NCBI GenBank assembly: GCA_902780985.1
Contig: CACZHN010000234.1
Location: 1-5,975 of the forward strand
Direction of reading: 5' to 3'
DNA: 5,975 nucleotides
Source of the DNA: an uncultured Lachnospiraceae bacterium
Lineage (GTDB): Bacteria; Bacillota_A; Clostridia; Lachnospirales; Lachnospiraceae
The translations under genes were made by a program, and so were the position numbers. Each line of letters starts with the position of its first letter. The stretch's first letter is position 1. The notes under the pieces are model-generated. The model ran no database searches. It was not told the DNA's origin and saw only the letters and a list, made by a program, of their open reading frames with translations. Positions 1 to 5,975 of this stretch are shown piece by piece.

Positions 1-3000
1 GCTGTATAGACGGTGCGGTGATAATCGGTTCGGCTGACGAAGAAGGAAGAAGACAGGAAGTTTCCAACTACGGAGATTCGGTTGATTACTATGTCGAGGC
101 GGAGTCCACATCCATAGCGGCAGCGAGATTCACGGGAATCATTTCGAAAGACGGAATCGAGAGCGTAAAGAACGGAAACACGGAGAAGGGTGTATATACA
201 AAGGAAATGATCAAAGATCCGATGGATCACACGCAGGATGAGATTCAGGGCATCATAGATTCTCTTTCGAAGGAAGAAAGAAGAAGTTATCTGGAAAACA
301 TCTACGACATCCTGAACGAAGAGGAGACAGAAGAGGACGCACTGAGAGAGATCGAAGCAATGTTTGAAGTGCAGGATCAGTGGGAGGTAAGTTCCGACTG
401 GTGTGCGGGTTATCTTTCCAGAAGACTCATCGGCGAAGGCAAGCTTCCGGGCGGAAGCATCACCCAGTCGGTATATCAGCTGAGGGGCATGCTTGAAGCT
501 GCGGGCTGGTCGGTGGTGAAGGATACAGGCCGCGCGCATTACAGCATGGGAAGTTCTCAGATCGCTTCAGACATAAATGCGGTAGCCAAAGCCGGAGACG
601 CAATCCTTTTCTACGGCAACGGCGCCGATGTAATGTATATGGTTCACTGCGGATACGCGAACGGCAACGGAACCATGGACGACAAGCCGGGCCAGTACAG
701 AGCCCTCAGAACCAACCACAACATAAACGGATATGTAACCGCGACCACAGGAGCGAAGGGGACCAACGGCTTCGTCATTTACAGAAGAAATGTTTCCTAC
801 GATTACTATCTGACGGTGGAGAAATCGTCTTCCACTACATTTAAACCGTCCATGAAGGGCATTCGCTATGACCTTACGGACAGCAACGGAACGCCGTACG
901 CTACATTTACCCTGGATGCCGACGGAAAGGTTACGAGTGCATCGGATATAACCGTTACGGCCGCAAGAGTTAATTCCACTATGAGAAATGTATCGGCGGT
1001 TAAGGGCGAAGACGGAAGATATTATTATCATTTCACCATCGACAACATTACCGGATGGAGCAACTCTTCTTTTAAGATAATTGAGCGAAGCACCAACGAC
1101 AACTACACGCTGAACGCGGGCCAGACTTATGTCAGGGACTGGGACGCAGGCGAATATAAGCTCATCAACGGCAGTACAAACACCAACATGATCGACGGCG
1201 TAGTGGCCGGCGACCTGAAGGGCATGATAGAAGTTTATAAAGTTGACGACGGCGGAAAGCCTCTTTCGGGTGCGGTATTTTCCGTAACAAATGCGGGCGG
1301 CACCGAGGTGGGAAGGATAACCACCAACGAGAAGGGCTACGGAACACTGACAAATCTCAACGGTGGAAGCTATAAGGTAAAGGAGATCAAGGCGCCGGCA
1401 GGATTCAGCCTGAGCAGCACGGTTTATTCCGTATCAATAGATACGTCCAAGACATTTGCACTGGCGGGCCAGTCCTATTCCTATGTATTCAATTCGGACT
1501 ATTATGTAACGGCAAATGAAGATCTGAAGAGAAACGTGGGTACCGATAAGGGACGCCTGGCCACGCATTTCCTGGAATACGGCATTAAGGAAGGCAGAAG
1601 ATCGGCGGAAGGATTCGATGTAAATGCATATAAGAATGCGGCTGAAAATGCGGATCTTAGAAGAAACTTCGGGAACAATACGGAGCTTTACTATCTGCAT
1701 TATCAGAACAGCGGTGCGAAGGAACAGAGAATGGGAAGACGCCCGGCGGATTATCAGGCGCTGAAGGAAGGCGTATCGGGCAGCGGTGCGGTTGCTACGA
1801 TAAAGATCGTGAACCATGCCAAGAGAGCGGACTTCAAATTTTCAAAGAGAGACGAAGCGGGCAGGCCGATGGCGGATGTTGAATTCGTGATCAAATCGGA
1901 AACTACAGGTGAAACGAAGACAATAAAAACAGATGCGAACGGCAACTACGAATCATCAAAAGCAGGACTCTGGTTTGAGATGAATAAGGACGGAACGAAA
2001 ACTCCGAAGCAGAGCGGACAGGGCGCATTACCGATAGGAACTTATACCGTAACCGAAAAAAGATGCGAAGCCAATAAGGGAAGACAGCTGGAGCCGGCTT
2101 ATACATTTAAGGTGGAAGACAGCATAACTTATGTGGTCAAAGACGGAAACGTTACGGGAAACGATATTACCAACGTGGAACTTCCGGAGATCGGCACAAC
2201 CGCATCGGTGGTTGAGACCGGTTCGAAGCTGGCTATGCAGGGCAGCGACATTACCATAAGGGATGTGGTCACTTATTCGAGACTTAAAGCGGACACGGAT
2301 TATACCCTTGTCGGAAAGCTTATGGTGGTCAGTGAAGACGGCAGCGCAGTGGTATATAAAAATGCAGGAAAGGACTACATAGTTGCAAAGAACTTCAAAA
2401 CACAGGCGGATTATAAGAAGTCCGTATATGAAGTATGCGGAAATACCACGGTGGACTTTAAAATAAATACAAAGGATCTGGACGGAAAGAAGCTGGTGGT
2501 ATTCGAAAAGCTTTATCTCGGAAAGAATGCACCTGCGGACGGAAGTGCGGCAGAGCAGTATAAGGAAAATCCGAGCGAGACAATCTTCCCTGTGGAGCAT
2601 GAAGATATAGCAAGTCTGACTCAGACGGTAAATGTACCGGTGCTGAAGACATCCGCAGGCGGAAGCGGAGCGGAGGATAAGCTTATCTATGCGGAAAAGA
2701 ATGCCACGGTGGTGGACAGACTTACATATAAGAATCTTCTTCCGGGAGAGAAGTACATCGTCAAAGGAAAGCTGATGGATAAAGCTACGGGTAAAACCGC
2801 GGTTGATTCATCGGGAAAAGAGATAACGGCTCAGAAGGAATTCACAGCGGATAAGGCTGAAGGCTATGTGGATATAAGCTATACATTTGATGCATCCGGC
2901 ATGGGCGGAAAGACGCTGGTCGTATTCGAATATGTATATTATAAGGACATCCTTGTAATGTCACACGACGATATAAATGACGAGGCACAGACGGTATATC

Positions 3001-3839
3001 TTCCGCTGGGTTCCACAACAGCAGTTGATACAAAGACGAAGGATCATATTCTGCTCGCGGAAAAGACCGCATCCATAACGGATACTCTTACATATAAGAA
3101 TCTGAAGCCGGGCGTGAAGTACACGGTTAAGGGAACTCTGATGGATAAGGAAACGGGAAAGGCTCTCAAAGGTGCGGACGGAAAAGATATAATCGTATCG
3201 AAGGAATTCACAGCCGAAAAGAGCGACGGAGCATTTGTGATACCTTTTAACTTTGACGCAAGTCTGCTTGCGGGAAAGACCGTAGTTGTATATGAGGACG
3301 TATATTATAACGGTAAGGCCGTGATAGTTCATCACAACATAAATGATACCAACCAGACTCTTCGTATACCTTCGGGAGGAACCAAGGCAAGAGATGCAAA
3401 GACAGGTGAGCAGATGCTTTATCCTGAGAAGGAAGCTGCGGTTATAGATACTGTTTCTTATAATAATCTGATACCGGGAAAGAAATATACGGTCAAGGGA
3501 ACTCTGATGGATAAGGCAACAGGCAAGGCTCTGACAGGTGCGGATGGAAAGGAGATCACATCGAGCAGGGAATTCACAGCGGATAAGGCAGACGGCAGCA
3601 TAGAGATGAGCTTTACATTTGATGCGAGCCTGCTTGCCGGAAAGACCATCGTTGCATTTGAAGATATTCTTTATAACGGAAAAGAAGTAGTGATCCATCA
3701 TGATATAAATGATGAGGCACAGACTATTTATTCGCCGCTGGGATCCACAACCGCGAAAGACAATAAGACGGGTACCCACCTGACGCTGGCTGACGCTGGC
3801 AGAAAAGAACGCATCGATCACAGATACTCTTACATATAA
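1..3839 (+). CDS. S8 protease / NlpC-P60-like / SpaA / VaFE-repeat surface protein, 5' partial and 3' frameshifted
   Basis: A giant secreted cell-surface protein; the frame is open from the window edge, so the true start and signal peptide lie upstream. The GTG at 18 is used here only as residue 1. Residues before 1 to about 48 end a subtilisin-like domain: GAVIIGSADEEG, SNYG, then STSIAAARFTG with catalytic Ser32. An acidic helical linker follows. Residues ~115-250 resemble an NlpC/P60 (or CHAP) domain, with DWCAGYL (Cys129), GDAILFY and VHCGYANGNG (His210). SpaA-like domains lie at ~261-397 (weak), 400-603 (K408, E456, N599) and 604-722 (K610, E680, N719; contains the RCEANKG hallmark). T-Q ester domains start at 723, 874, 996, 1118 and 1240. 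A 10-bp duplication at 3780-3800 shifts the frame, giving about 15 foreign residues and a TAA at 3837-3839. The remainder of the gene continues to 4751. Likely role: a stalked adhesin carrying peptidase heads. Domain calls rest on motif recognition, not searches; the NlpC/P60 call is the least certain. Confidence 0.85.
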   Translation, partial: CIDGAVIIGSADEEGRRQEVSNYGDSVDYYVEAESTSIAAARFTGIISKDGIESVKNGNTEKGVYTKEMIKDPMDHTQDEIQGIIDSLSKEERRSYLENIYDILNEEETEEDALREIEAMFEVQDQWEVSSDWCAGYLSRRLIGEGKLPGGSITQSVYQLRGMLEAAGWSVVKDTGRAHYSMGSSQIASDINAVAKAGDAILFYGNGADVMYMVHCGYANGNGTMDDKPGQYRALRTNHNINGYVTATTGAKGTNGFVIYRRNVSYDYYLTVEKSSSTTFKPSMKGIRYDLTDSNGTPYATFTLDADGKVTSASDITVTAARVNSTMRNVSAVKGEDGRYYYHFTIDNITGWSNSSFKIIERSTNDNYTLNAGQTYVRDWDAGEYKLINGSTNTNMIDGVVAGDLKGMIEVYKVDDGGKPLSGAVFSVTNAGGTEVGRITTNEKGYGTLTNLNGGSYKVKEIKAPAGFSLSSTVYSVSIDTSKTFALAGQSYSYVFNSDYYVTANEDLKRNVGTDKGRLATHFLEYGIKEGRRSAEGFDVNAYKNAAENADLRRNFGNNTELYYLHYQNSGAKEQRMGRRPADYQALKEGVSGSGAVATIKIVNHAKRADFKFSKRDEAGRPMADVEFVIKSETTGETKTIKTDANGNYESSKAGLWFEMNKDGTKTPKQSGQGALPIGTYTVTEKRCEANKGRQLEPAYTFKVEDSITYVVKDGNVTGNDITNVELPEIGTTASVVETGSKLAMQGSDITIRDVVTYSRLKADTDYTLVGKLMVVSEDGSAVVYKNAGKDYIVAKNFKTQADYKKSVYEVCGNTTVDFKINTKDLDGKKLVVFEKLYLGKNAPADGSAAEQYKENPSETIFPVEHEDIASLTQTVNVPVLKTSAGGSGAEDKLIYAEKNATVVDRLTYKNLLPGEKYIVKGKLMDKATGKTAVDSSGKEITAQKEFTADKAEGYVDISYTFDASGMGGKTLVVFEYVYYKDILVMSHDDINDEAQTVYLPLGSTTAVDTKTKDHILLAEKTASITDTLTYKNLKPGVKYTVKGTLMDKETGKALKGADGKDIIVSKEFTAEKSDGAFVIPFNFDASLLAGKTVVVYEDVYYNGKAVIVHHNINDTNQTLRIPSGGTKARDAKTGEQMLYPEKEAAVIDTVSYNNLIPGKKYTVKGTLMDKATGKALTGADGKEITSSREFTADKADGSIEMSFTFDASLLAGKTIVAFEDILYNGKEVVIHHDINDEAQTIYSPLGSTTAKDNKTGTHLTLADAGRKERIDHRYSYI
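1488..1742 (+). repeat. Two FxxxYY...HFLxYGxxEGR-type repeats inserted in a SpaA domain
   Basis: Two consecutive units of 42 and 43 codons. The first starts FNSDYYVTANEDLKRNVG and ends THFLEYGIKEGR. The second starts FDVNAYKNAAENADLRRNFG and ends YYLHYQNSGAKEQR. They match the 'F(D)xxYYxxxNPDL ... HYxxYGxxEGR' repeat seen in many Lachnospiraceae surface proteins, whose function I do not know. They sit between the body of the second SpaA domain (ending near 1487) and its last strand (VATIKIVNHAKR, 1791-1826). Confidence 0.75.
3780..3800 (+). repeat. 10-bp exact tandem duplication causing a frameshift
   Basis: CTGACGCTGG occurs twice in a row (3780-3789, 3790-3799) followed by C, a 21-bp tract of period 10. 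Removing one copy gives THLTLAEKNASITDTLTY, which fits the other T-Q domains. With both copies the frame shifts by one and hits TAA at 3837-3839. Confidence 0.95.
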
Positions 3840-4101
3840 GAACCTGATACCGGGAAAGAAATACACGGTCAAGGGAATGCTGATGGATAAGGCTACAGGC
3901 AAGCCGGTCACGGGAGCGGACGGAAAAGAGATTTCCGTATCTAAGGAATTCACAACAGATAAGAAAGATGGTTCGATAGATATGGTATTCAACTTCGATG
4001 CGGATATTCTGAAGGGACATACTATAGTAGTATTTGAAGATGTCTACTATAACGGAAAGCTGATCATAACCCATCATGTGTCTACTATAACGGAAAGCTG
4101 A
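3799..4101 (+). pseudogene. Frameshifted middle part of fifth VaFE/T-Q ester domain
   Basis: After the 10-bp duplication the coding sense moves to the next frame. It reads AEKNASITDTLTYKNLIPG, then KGMLMDKATGKP, FNFDADILKGH and VVFEDVYYNGKLIITHH, matching domains 2-4 position by position. A 38-bp duplication then shifts the frame again, and this frame ends at the TGA at 4099-4101. An ATG at 3877 lies mid-domain with no ribosome binding site, so this is not an independent gene. It is a piece of the surface-protein gene that starts upstream of the window. Confidence 0.85.
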
Positions 4102-4116
4102 TCATAACCCATCATG
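4041..4116 (+). repeat. 38-bp exact tandem duplication causing a second, compensating frameshift
   Basis: Bases 4041-4078 and 4079-4116 are identical 38-mers, each starting TGTCTACTATAACGG and ending AACCCATCATG. The unit encodes the VYYNGKLIITHH strand of T-Q domain 5. A 38-bp gain shifts the frame by two, which with the 10-bp duplication upstream returns to the original frame (+48). Confidence 0.97.
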
Positions 4117-4751
4117 ATCTGAATGATGAATCTCAGACCATTCATATCCCTGAATGCTCAACGGATGCTAAGGACGGAAAGACGGGAACAAAGACCGGAA
4201 AGGCAGAACCGGATGCGGAAGTAAAGGACACGGTGGCTTACTCAAACCTGATACCGGGTGAAGAGTATGTGGCAAAGGGCGTACTTATGGATAAAGAAAG
4301 CGGAGAACCGCTTAAAGATGATAATGATAAAGAGATAACCTCTACGGTTTCTTTCATACCCGAGTATGCAGACGGACTGATAGACGTATCTTTCAAGTTC
4401 GATGCTTCAGGGCTGAAGAATAAGACGGTCGTAGTATTTGAAGAAGTATTTCAGGGAGAAGAAGGAGTTGAGGGAGTGGCAGTTCTGGTCCATAAGGATA
4501 TAAATGACGTAGATCAGGCCGTCACATTCATATATGAAGAACCGGATCAGCCACCTAAAACTCCTCCTGAAAAAGTGACACCGCCTAAAGAGATAACTCC
4601 GCCGGAAAAAGTAACACCTCCGACGCCTACGCCGCCGAGTGATGTGACCCCGCCTACGGGAGATTCGATATCGATAATACTTCTGGTAATAGTATCAATG
4701 GCGGCAGCGGTAGGAGCACTGGTAGTAGAACGAAAGAAGAGGAAGAAGTGA
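4053..4751 (+). pseudogene. 3' fragment of surface protein: end of T-Q domain 5, T-Q domain 6, Pro-rich stalk, sortase-type anchor
   Basis: The original frame is open again from 4053. Real homology resumes in the second copy of the 38-bp duplication: VYYNGKLIITHHDLNDESQTI, the end of domain 5 with its Gln codon at 4134. Domain 6 (about 4149-4541) has STDA at its start, DTVAYSNLIPGEEY, VLMDKESGEP, VVFEEVF and HKDINDVDQAV. A Pro-rich stalk of TPPEKVTPP-like units follows, then TPPTGD, a hydrophobic segment and a KKRKK tail, ending at TGA 4749-4751. The GTG at 4233 sits inside the domain core with no ribosome binding site, so I see no real start. The fragment is in the same frame as bases 1-3839 because the two duplications total 48 bp. 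It is expressed only if the duplications are absent or bypassed. Confidence 0.85.
4542..4748 (+). other. Pro-rich wall stalk and sortase-type cell-wall sorting signal
   Basis: Codons 4542-4646 encode a Pro/Thr/Lys-rich stretch with repeated PPEKVTPP-like units, typical of peptidoglycan-spanning segments. TPPTG (4647-4661) is followed by Asp, then a hydrophobic segment (ISIILLVIVSMAAAVGALVV) and the basic tail ERKKRKK. The layout is a textbook sortase substrate tail. The expected Leu/Ile of LPxTG is Thr here, so the sortase class cannot be given. Confidence 0.8.
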
Positions 4752-4829: not shown

Positions 4830-5018
4830 ATGGCACGTGAAGAGATTACCAGATTGTATAGCGTAAGAAGATATAGAATTCCTTTCTTTCGTGGCAGACA
4901 GGGAAGAAAACTTGCGGATGATTTAAGAAATTGTCCTAGACTGGACAGAGAAAAACTTAAAAGATTAGCCGACAAAGAAAGAGCTCGTATATTGGCTAGT
5001 ATGGAAGATGACAGATAA
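4830..5018 (+). CDS. Small basic hypothetical protein (62 aa)
   Basis: I do not recognise this protein. The ATG at 4830 follows GGAGGTGA (4817-4824) with a 5-base spacer, a strong ribosome binding site. An in-frame GTG at 4821 lies inside that site and is rejected as a start. The product, MAREEITRLYSVRRYRIPF to ASMEDDR, is rich in Arg and Lys. It has a basic N-terminal half (SVRRYRIPFFRGRQGRK) and a probable charged helix at about residues 27-58 (LADDLRNC, DREKLKRLADKERARIL). There is no signal peptide or membrane segment. Its last 11 bases overlap the first possible ATG (5008) of the transposase remnant, so the two may have been co-translated. The composition could suit nucleic-acid binding, but that is a guess. 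Confidence 0.65.
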   Translation: MAREEITRLYSVRRYRIPFFRGRQGRKLADDLRNCPRLDREKLKRLADKERARILASMEDDR

Positions 5019-5419
5019 TGGATATATATGTAAAGAAGAGGACCTACAACGTTTAAGAAAACTTCGACCCATAGATGATCTTGTTATTGTTGAAGAAGAT
5101 ACTCAGTACGATATAAAAAGACTGGTCGGGGCTCGATCGATATGTCTTGATGTATATGGTACAGATGATTCCGGAACAAGATATGAATTATAGTATTATG
5201 GCTGATAAAACCAGATACTATAAAGAGAATCCGAAAGGAGTGAGTGAAATGTGTAAAATTATAGAAGATATGAAGAATGAAGCAGCAAAAAAAGCAGCGG
5301 ATGCAAAAGCGATTGAAATTGCCAAATCACTCATTGCATTAAAGGAAAACACTTTGGATACGATTGCAAAAGTAACAAAACTTCCTATTGAGGAAATCCG
5401 AAAACTTGCCGAGATTTAG
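5008..5419 (+). pseudogene. PD-(D/E)XK nuclease family transposase (Rpn-type) remnant
   Basis: Three family pieces are joined in order. 5008-5075 encodes the N-terminus (YICKEEDLQRLRKLRPIDD). 5076-5193 gives VIVEEDTQYDIKRLVGARS and LDVYGTDDSGTRYEL, then a stop. The next frame, open from 5147, continues from about 5180 with MADKTRYYKENPKGV, MCKIIEDMKNEAA and a C-terminal helix ending KLPIEEIRKLAEI at 5419. From memory of the family, intact members are roughly 250-350 residues. Here the helix between PIDD and the core is missing, as is everything between RYEL and MADKTRYY. The LDVY aspartate of the nuclease core remains, but the following E-x-Q/K catalytic half is gone, so no active nuclease can be made. 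The family comprises mobile-element-associated nucleases (recombination-promoting or toxin-like). Similar genes are common in Lachnospiraceae. Confidence 0.8.
5249..5419 (+). CDS. Possible intragenic small ORF: C-terminal helical tail of the Rpn-type remnant (56 aa)
   Basis: Inside the remnant, AAAGGAG (5234-5240) lies 8 bases before an ATG at 5249, which is good Shine-Dalgarno geometry. The ORF reads MCKIIEDMKNEAAKKAADAK to IEEIRKLAEI. It is a Lys/Ala/Glu-rich helix followed by a probable small helical module (DTIAKVTKLPIEEIRKLAE), and it ends just before a terminator. Some Rpn genes are reported to make a short C-terminal protein (RpnS) from an internal start that restrains the full-length nuclease. 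Whether this ORF is translated is unknown. Confidence 0.3.
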   Translation: MCKIIEDMKNEAAKKAADAKAIEIAKSLIALKENTLDTIAKVTKLPIEEIRKLAEI

Positions 5420-5574: not shown

Positions 5575-5660
5575 GGAGAGGTATCGAAGTGGTCATAACG
5601 AGGCGGTCTTGAAAACCGTTTGTCCGCAAGGGCACATGGGTTCGAATCCCATCCTCTCCG
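5575..5660 (+). tRNA. tRNA-Ser (anticodon TGA)
   Basis: The acceptor arms GGAGAGG (5575-5581) and CCTCTCC (5653-5659) pair perfectly, with discriminator G at 5660. The anticodon loop CTTGAAA (5608-5614) has TGA at 5610-5612 on stem CGGT/ACCG. A long variable arm (TGTCC-GCAA-GGGCA) marks it as class II. The T arm is ATGGG-TTCGAAT-CCCAT. CCA is not encoded. It reads UCA and, by wobble, other UCN serine codons. Confidence 0.97.
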
Positions 5661-5701
5661 CTTGTCCGATAAGGACATAGAGATTCAGGCGTTAGGATAT
5701 T

Positions 5702-5790
5702 GGAGAAGTACCCAAGCGGCTGAAGGGGCTCCCCTGGAAAGGGAGTAGGTCGTTAATAGCGGCGCGAGGGTTCAAATCCCTCCTTCTCCG
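5702..5790 (+). tRNA. tRNA-Ser (anticodon GGA)
   Basis: The acceptor arms GGAGAAG (5702-5708) and CTTCTCC (5783-5789) pair, with discriminator G at 5790. The anticodon loop CTGGAAA (5734-5740) has GGA at 5736-5738 on stem CTCCC/GGGAG. A long class II variable arm follows, then T arm GAGGG-TTCAAAT-CCCTC. CCA is not encoded. It lies 41 bases after the first tRNA-Ser with no promoter visible between, so the two are probably one transcript. A small TGTCC/GGACA hairpin (5663-5677) occupies the spacer. It reads UCC and UCU. Confidence 0.97.
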
Positions 5791-5975
5791 TACTATATAA
5801 GTACTGCTCTGAAACCTTGAATCTGTTGAACCTTAATAACTTAATAACATGACAACCCCGAAAATTCTTTTAAAAGCGGATCTTTCACGAGATCCACGAA
5901 GATGAAAATCTTCACAAGAATATTCGGATTTAAGAACGAATCCAAACAGTAAATTTTTGGAACGGTAAACGTTAA
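5791..5975. other. 185-base stretch with no recognisable gene; small hairpins and two mini-ORFs
   Basis: No known gene, tRNA or clear terminator is visible. GTACT/AGTAC (5790-5804) is a 5-bp stem without a U-tract. CTTAATAA is repeated twice (5832-5847). Three small hairpins follow: GGATCT/AGATCC (5878-5895), GAAGAT/ATCTTC with a GAAA loop (5898-5913) and GGATT/AATCC (5926-5943). Two tiny ORFs overlap by ATGA: 5849-5905 (18 codons) and 5902-5952 (16 codons, MKIFTRIFGFKNESKQ). Neither has a good ribosome binding site. It could be the leader of a gene beyond the window. Confidence 0.4.

Follow-up and report, generated by a model that had tools for sequence, protein, structure and literature searches.

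Two exact tandem duplications interrupt a VaFE/T-Q ester-domain surface-protein gene of an uncultured Lachnospiraceae-type bacterium, with an assembly join as the favoured origin

The 5,975 nucleotides analysed here (the window), which appear to be a single metagenome contig, carry a gene from an uncultured Lachnospiraceae-type bacterium. The predicted product is a surface protein with VaFE/T-Q ester domains. The fifth T-Q domain of this gene is broken by two perfect tandem duplications, one of 10 bp and one of 38 bp (Table 1). On balance, we favour an assembly error as the source of both, with one join leaving the overlaps unmerged at the two ends of a single piece. A whole, uninterrupted relative with 99% identity lacks both duplications, and the duplicated form itself is found in one contig only.

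The initial annotation had described a period-10 tract and a perfect 38-bp doublet, and both were recovered by TRF as well as by an independent lag scan. TRF assigns 2.1 copies of period 10 to the first tract and 2.0 copies of period 38 to the second, each with a 100% match. The lag scan (periods 4-200, matching positions at least max(10, period)) returned no tandem tract in the window beyond these two, while TRF also reports a third, shorter perfect tract of period 8 outside the gene (5832-5848, 17 bases) and five imperfect tandem tracts. Chance would be expected to yield 0.013 tracts per window (period 8-59, with max(11, period) or more matching positions), as estimated from 300 first-order Markov sequences equal in length to the window. 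Junction homology amounts to 1 bp at the 10-bp unit and 0 bp at the 38-bp unit, from which it follows that no pre-existing repeat seeded the duplications; direct repeats of the kind that seed slippage in reversible-duplication phase variation are thus missing from both sites.

Two further causes were considered. Hairpins are rejected, since single-strand folding at the two sites is no better than in shuffled sequences (z 0.49 and 0.98). A transposon footprint as the origin of the 38-bp duplication was set aside on general knowledge, because the target duplications of transposons are usually far shorter than 38 bp.

Table 1. Coordinates of the two duplications, the piece between them and the surrounding parts of the gene, in window positions.
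Feature	Position	Strand	Remarks
10-bp tandem duplication, perfect	3780..3800	+	21 bases, 1 bp extra junction identity (TRF, lag scan)
38-bp tandem duplication, perfect	4041..4116	+	no extra junction identity (TRF, lag scan)
288-bp piece between both duplication junctions	3791..4078	+	inferred; 1-base ambiguity at the left junction
Upstream open frame of 1278 aa, running off the left end of the contig	3..3839	+	end of subtilisin-like region, SpaA/prealbumin-like domains, T-Q domains 1-4, start of domain 5
T-Q (VaFE) domain 5, Gln motif to end of next	3702..4139	+	414 bp between motif starts vs 366
Downstream piece, in the upstream register again	4117..4751	+	end of domain 5, T-Q domain 6, proline-rich stretch, sorting-signal-like C terminus

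The assignment of the gene product is carried by its repeated domains, which score above the curated cut-off. PF18202 matches the upstream frame with 364 bits over four stretches (3-3836) and the two further pieces with one stretch each (43.6 bits at 3877-4098 and 96.7 bits at 4125-4748), and PF17802 (SpaA) contributes two stretches in the upstream open frame. In the uninterrupted relative, a protein of 1863 aa (P0001), NF033903 reaches 690.7 bits and the VaFE/T-Q stretches number six. The window therefore resembles the known VaFE/T-Q surface-anchored proteins (NF033903, PF18202) in its four plus two stretches, and differs from them in the interruption of domain 5. The Thr-Gln ester crosslink chemistry of such domains is described for Cpe0147 (PMC12679949).

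The product is a predicted secreted and probably wall-anchored protein. P0001 carries a subtilisin-like region (residues ~175-347), which is matched by NCBIfam subtilase models below their cut-offs and by PDB subtilisin chains with a best E of 5.5e-12. Its matches to wall-anchor models are sub-threshold (Gram_pos_anchor 11.4 bits with a cut-off of 20, NF053819 21.4 bits with a cut-off of 47), the former being a point of difference from the surface-anchored family. The tail of the window's gene is nearly the same as that of P0001: proline-rich, then hydrophobic, then basic. Two stretches of the upstream frame deserve a separate mention. At 201-1010, the ~270 aa that separate the subtilisin-like region from the SpaA domains include one Cys and one His-Cys pair, and by eye this stretch resembles a domain of papain/CHAP type; Pfam gave no match there and NCBIfam a single weak one (13.1 bits, cut-off 101). 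At 1458-1742 (upstream-frame residues ~486-580), a unit of ~95 aa has many further copies, close to one another, at other places in two genomes, G001 and G002 (e.g. contigs C42 and C153), and has no Pfam match in the scanned interval 1476-1820.

Past the first duplication, the upstream frame is shifted and meets a stop at 3837. The starts of the Gln motifs, which mark the T-Q repeats, are spaced by 366 bp (2604 to 2970), 732 bp (2970 to 3702) and 414 bp (3702 to 4116). The second interval equals two repeats, the motif in between having been missed by the pattern, and the third equals 366 + 48 bp, i.e. one repeat plus both gains. The counterpart of this third interval in P0001 spans 122 residues (1532 to 1654), or 366 bp. 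Spacing arithmetic and relative thus bear out the proposal of the initial annotation that domain 5 measures 366 bp once the gains are removed. Its further proposal that the same removal re-opens a single frame agrees with P0001 and with the related locus L001, both of which are whole and lack the two duplications.

The picture of a frame that is broken and then restored holds only in part. The register does return after 4116, as 10 and 38 add up to 48. However, six stops in the upstream frame lie between the duplications (3837, 3888, 3942, 3960, 4035 and 4050), so the second duplication does not rescue translation. As read, the product would end without T-Q domains 5 and 6 and without the tail.

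All three pieces of the window (3-3776, 3802-4077 and 4119-4748) align to P0001, every piece in a frame of its own, and at the two breaks P0001 lacks 10 and 38 nt of the window. Residue differences number 12/1258 upstream, 1/92 between the duplications (3802-4077) and 9/210 downstream, the last with an additional one-residue gap. The higher rate downstream is due to a patch in T-Q domain 6 (4314-4365), into which eight of the nine differences are packed and which has the look of gene conversion or recombination. Apart from the two duplications, the visible gene shows no frame break relative to P0001. Alignment to L001 gives the same result at the level of DNA: the window carries insertions of 10, 38, 15, 36 and 3 bp, and L001 carries insertions of 955 bp (the gene start, which the window lacks), 174, 3, 3 and 3 bp. 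Leaving aside the gene start at the contig edge, only the 10- and 38-bp indels are not multiples of three. The visible part of the gene, as far as its sequence can tell, is free of signs of decay, and the gene start lies outside the contig.

Uninterrupted reading to the tail was found in five of the five relatives read (P0001-P0004 and L001), beside which the protein search gave 34 more distant proteins; P0001, P0002 and L001 are the three that were aligned to the window. A further locus, L002, stops before domain 5. We note that P0001 belongs to a predicted-protein collection whose full-length entries are biased towards whole genes, and that its cluster has four members, one of which may be the window's own fragment, which makes four no firm count of independent whole copies. 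Two relatives are known at the DNA level: Lachnospiraceae bacterium UBA2864, with 75% identity in the best segment, and uncultured Clostridiales bacterium RUG222, with 68%. In the genus of G001 (UBA2864), 57 of 61 genomes contain a T-Q domain, and two of the 61 match this protein at E up to 1e-150, namely these same two assemblies, G001 and G002, which carry L001 and L002. In a family sample searched with DNA at E up to 1e-50, one of 397 genomes matched, and this was G001 itself.

How far the duplicated form is spread can be followed with a diagnostic frame of 74 aa that ends inside the doubled 38-bp unit. At E up to 1e-8, its one candidate and sole match in the protein collection is P0039, a single-member entry from a single contig whose length, 5975, is that of the window, which is thus its source. 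The fragment was consequently found in no other contig of that collection, within the reach of a search that would miss copies where gene calling had passed over so small a frame. The five whole relatives read show the unduplicated form and one contig the duplicated one; a locus with just one of the two duplications was not found. Viral contigs contain no exact match to a 32-base pattern ending just inside the first 38-bp copy, and neither of the two pattern stretches among them could be confirmed as a relative of the upstream protein. With the last piece of the gene as query, seven proteins were returned, of which four were read (P0040, P0041, P0043 and P0044). Three of these are partial copies of that last domain and sit on short contigs: P0040 (92%, 1759-bp contig), P0041 (77%, 1150 bp) and P0043 (60%, 1030 bp). 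Known from their protein entries alone, they may be calls at contig edges.

For comparison, 32 related loci (120,377 bases) were scanned for perfect tandem tracts. None has a frame-breaking one, and a single 9-bp tract was all that was detected. These controls are 32 of 46 loci, the remaining 14 being additional parts of the G001 and G002 genomes; the loci from the T-Q domain search of the genus measure ~3 kb each and fall short of whole genes, and L001 and L020 overlap. The result counts against a common artefact and a common switch alike.

We propose that a piece of ~288 bp (3791-4078) would have been set between its neighbours during assembly, while the overlaps at its two ends (10-11 bp left, 38 bp right) stayed unmerged, each being written twice. 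In the cell, the gene would then be whole, like P0001. Such a single join would explain both duplications, and this is why misassembly fits better than a switch: the closeness of the two events (junctions 288 bp apart), their exactness and the missing junction homology all follow from it, the 1 and 0 bp being as expected where no pairing at repeats is needed. It is harder to account for two duplications that arose independently in the cell, within 288 bp of each other in a ~5.6-kb gene where nothing else disabling is seen. The T-Q domains also have exact repeats of 20-22 bp in common, two of them inside the bracketed piece (3823 and 3844), and the last-domain fragments of relatives on short contigs would fit assemblies that break in this region. 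What we observe is an exact pair of duplications, without junction homology, in one assembly only; a rare real allele would look alike. Several observations argue against the assembly reading. Usual assembly word lengths exceed 22 bp, so the exact inter-domain repeats, at most 22 bp long, fall below them; the 32 scanned loci hold no such error, which makes such errors rare too; and the bias of the collection towards whole genes weakens P0001 as support. Among the matches listed for literature on assembly artefacts, no title deals with short-read joins in bacteria.

A real and recent loss-of-function allele stands between misassembly and a switch in likelihood, and we regard it as unlikely though worth serious weight. 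It would have arisen through two duplications or through one complex template-switching event, and would now be a young pseudogene without programmed switching, whose product, cut within T-Q domain 5, would either be degraded or leave the cell lacking domains 5 and 6 as well as the tail. Both duplications are exact copies that put the gene out of frame, which is consistent with this. Duplications of this kind are also real elsewhere: spontaneous tandem duplications of 26-116 bp occur in Xenorhabdus lrp, and restoration of a functional sequence was never seen there (PMC6786866). These lrp cases share with the window a short tandem duplication acting as a null mutation, and in this respect argue against the assembly reading; unlike the window's pair, which is known from one contig, they stem from sequenced cultures. 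PMC4022640 similarly describes a short tandem duplication in pneumococcal wchA. Under neutral decay, however, two independent duplications with no other visible stop or frameshift are unlikely, and the protein collection holds this form in one contig only. As for a second duplication selected to compensate for the first, the sum of 48 is divisible by three and the register is back after 4116, but a sum divisible by three has a chance of about one in three. The six stops between the duplications mean that nothing is restored at the protein level; we reject compensation on these grounds and hold it to be highly improbable.

The initial annotation had left the choice between misassembly and slippage-driven variation; the former is the one we favour, and the latter finds little backing. 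A reversible ON/OFF switch, between an anchored and a truncated form, in which random duplications inactivate the gene and slippage between the copies removes them, appears improbable to us. Tandem-duplication phase variation of pneumococcal capsule genes was reportedly described by Waite et al. in 2001 (type 3 locus) and in 2003 (cap8E and tts), and going by the titles, inactivation of an open frame by sequence duplications within it is what these systems have in common with the window. Such a mechanism is indeed reported for capsule genes, these studies being cited in PMC4022640 and PMC4292784. Here, what can be seen of the gene is undamaged apart from the two duplications, and there is a whole allele with 99% identity. 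The window nevertheless differs from the capsule loci, with two duplications in one copy and neither revertants nor mixed states seen, although a switch would predict the latter. No flanking repeat is present to seed the duplications, none of the 32 scanned loci has a comparable tract, the five uninterrupted relatives read without such a break, and both duplications would have to revert. In the wchA work, an insertion of nine bp at the longest was expected to revert at no more than ~1e-5 (PMC4022640), an estimate of relevance to the 10-bp copy; the 38-bp copy may revert more often. Literature searches found nothing on tandem-duplication phase variation of cap3A, nor on small tandem duplications with microhomology. 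Still more doubtful than a switch as such is the picture of a gut or rumen commensal that toggles a subtilisin-like, T-Q-crosslinked surface protein between wall-anchored and released, truncated forms by gaining and losing exact duplications without a resident simple-sequence repeat.

If the favoured assembly reading is correct, pairs of exact duplications that flank a short segment of a repeat-domain gene can be mistaken for phase variation or for pseudogenes in metagenomes, as this contig exemplifies, and such pairs could be screened for by junction homology and spacing. Were the duplications instead real and reversible, the random-duplication phase variation of pneumococcal capsule genes would extend to commensal adhesins.

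Downstream of the gene, another frame of 74 aa (5195-5416) is similar to the C-terminal end of TIGR01784, a model for Rpn-family nucleases/putative transposases (19.1 bits, below its cut-off of 52.1), and the stretch just before it (5008-5190) matches no family in Pfam or NCBIfam. The former, and with it the latter, may be the remnant of an Rpn-family nuclease/putative transposase gene. L001 has, immediately behind its copy of the adhesin, an open frame that matches Transposase_31 (35.7 bits with a cut-off of 21). Further on, the window carries two serine tRNA genes in tandem (5575-5661 and 5701-5791, with the anticodons TGA and GGA). The region of the second of these accounts for every phage match (seven of seven records) and for every plasmid match among the 20 records listed of 23.
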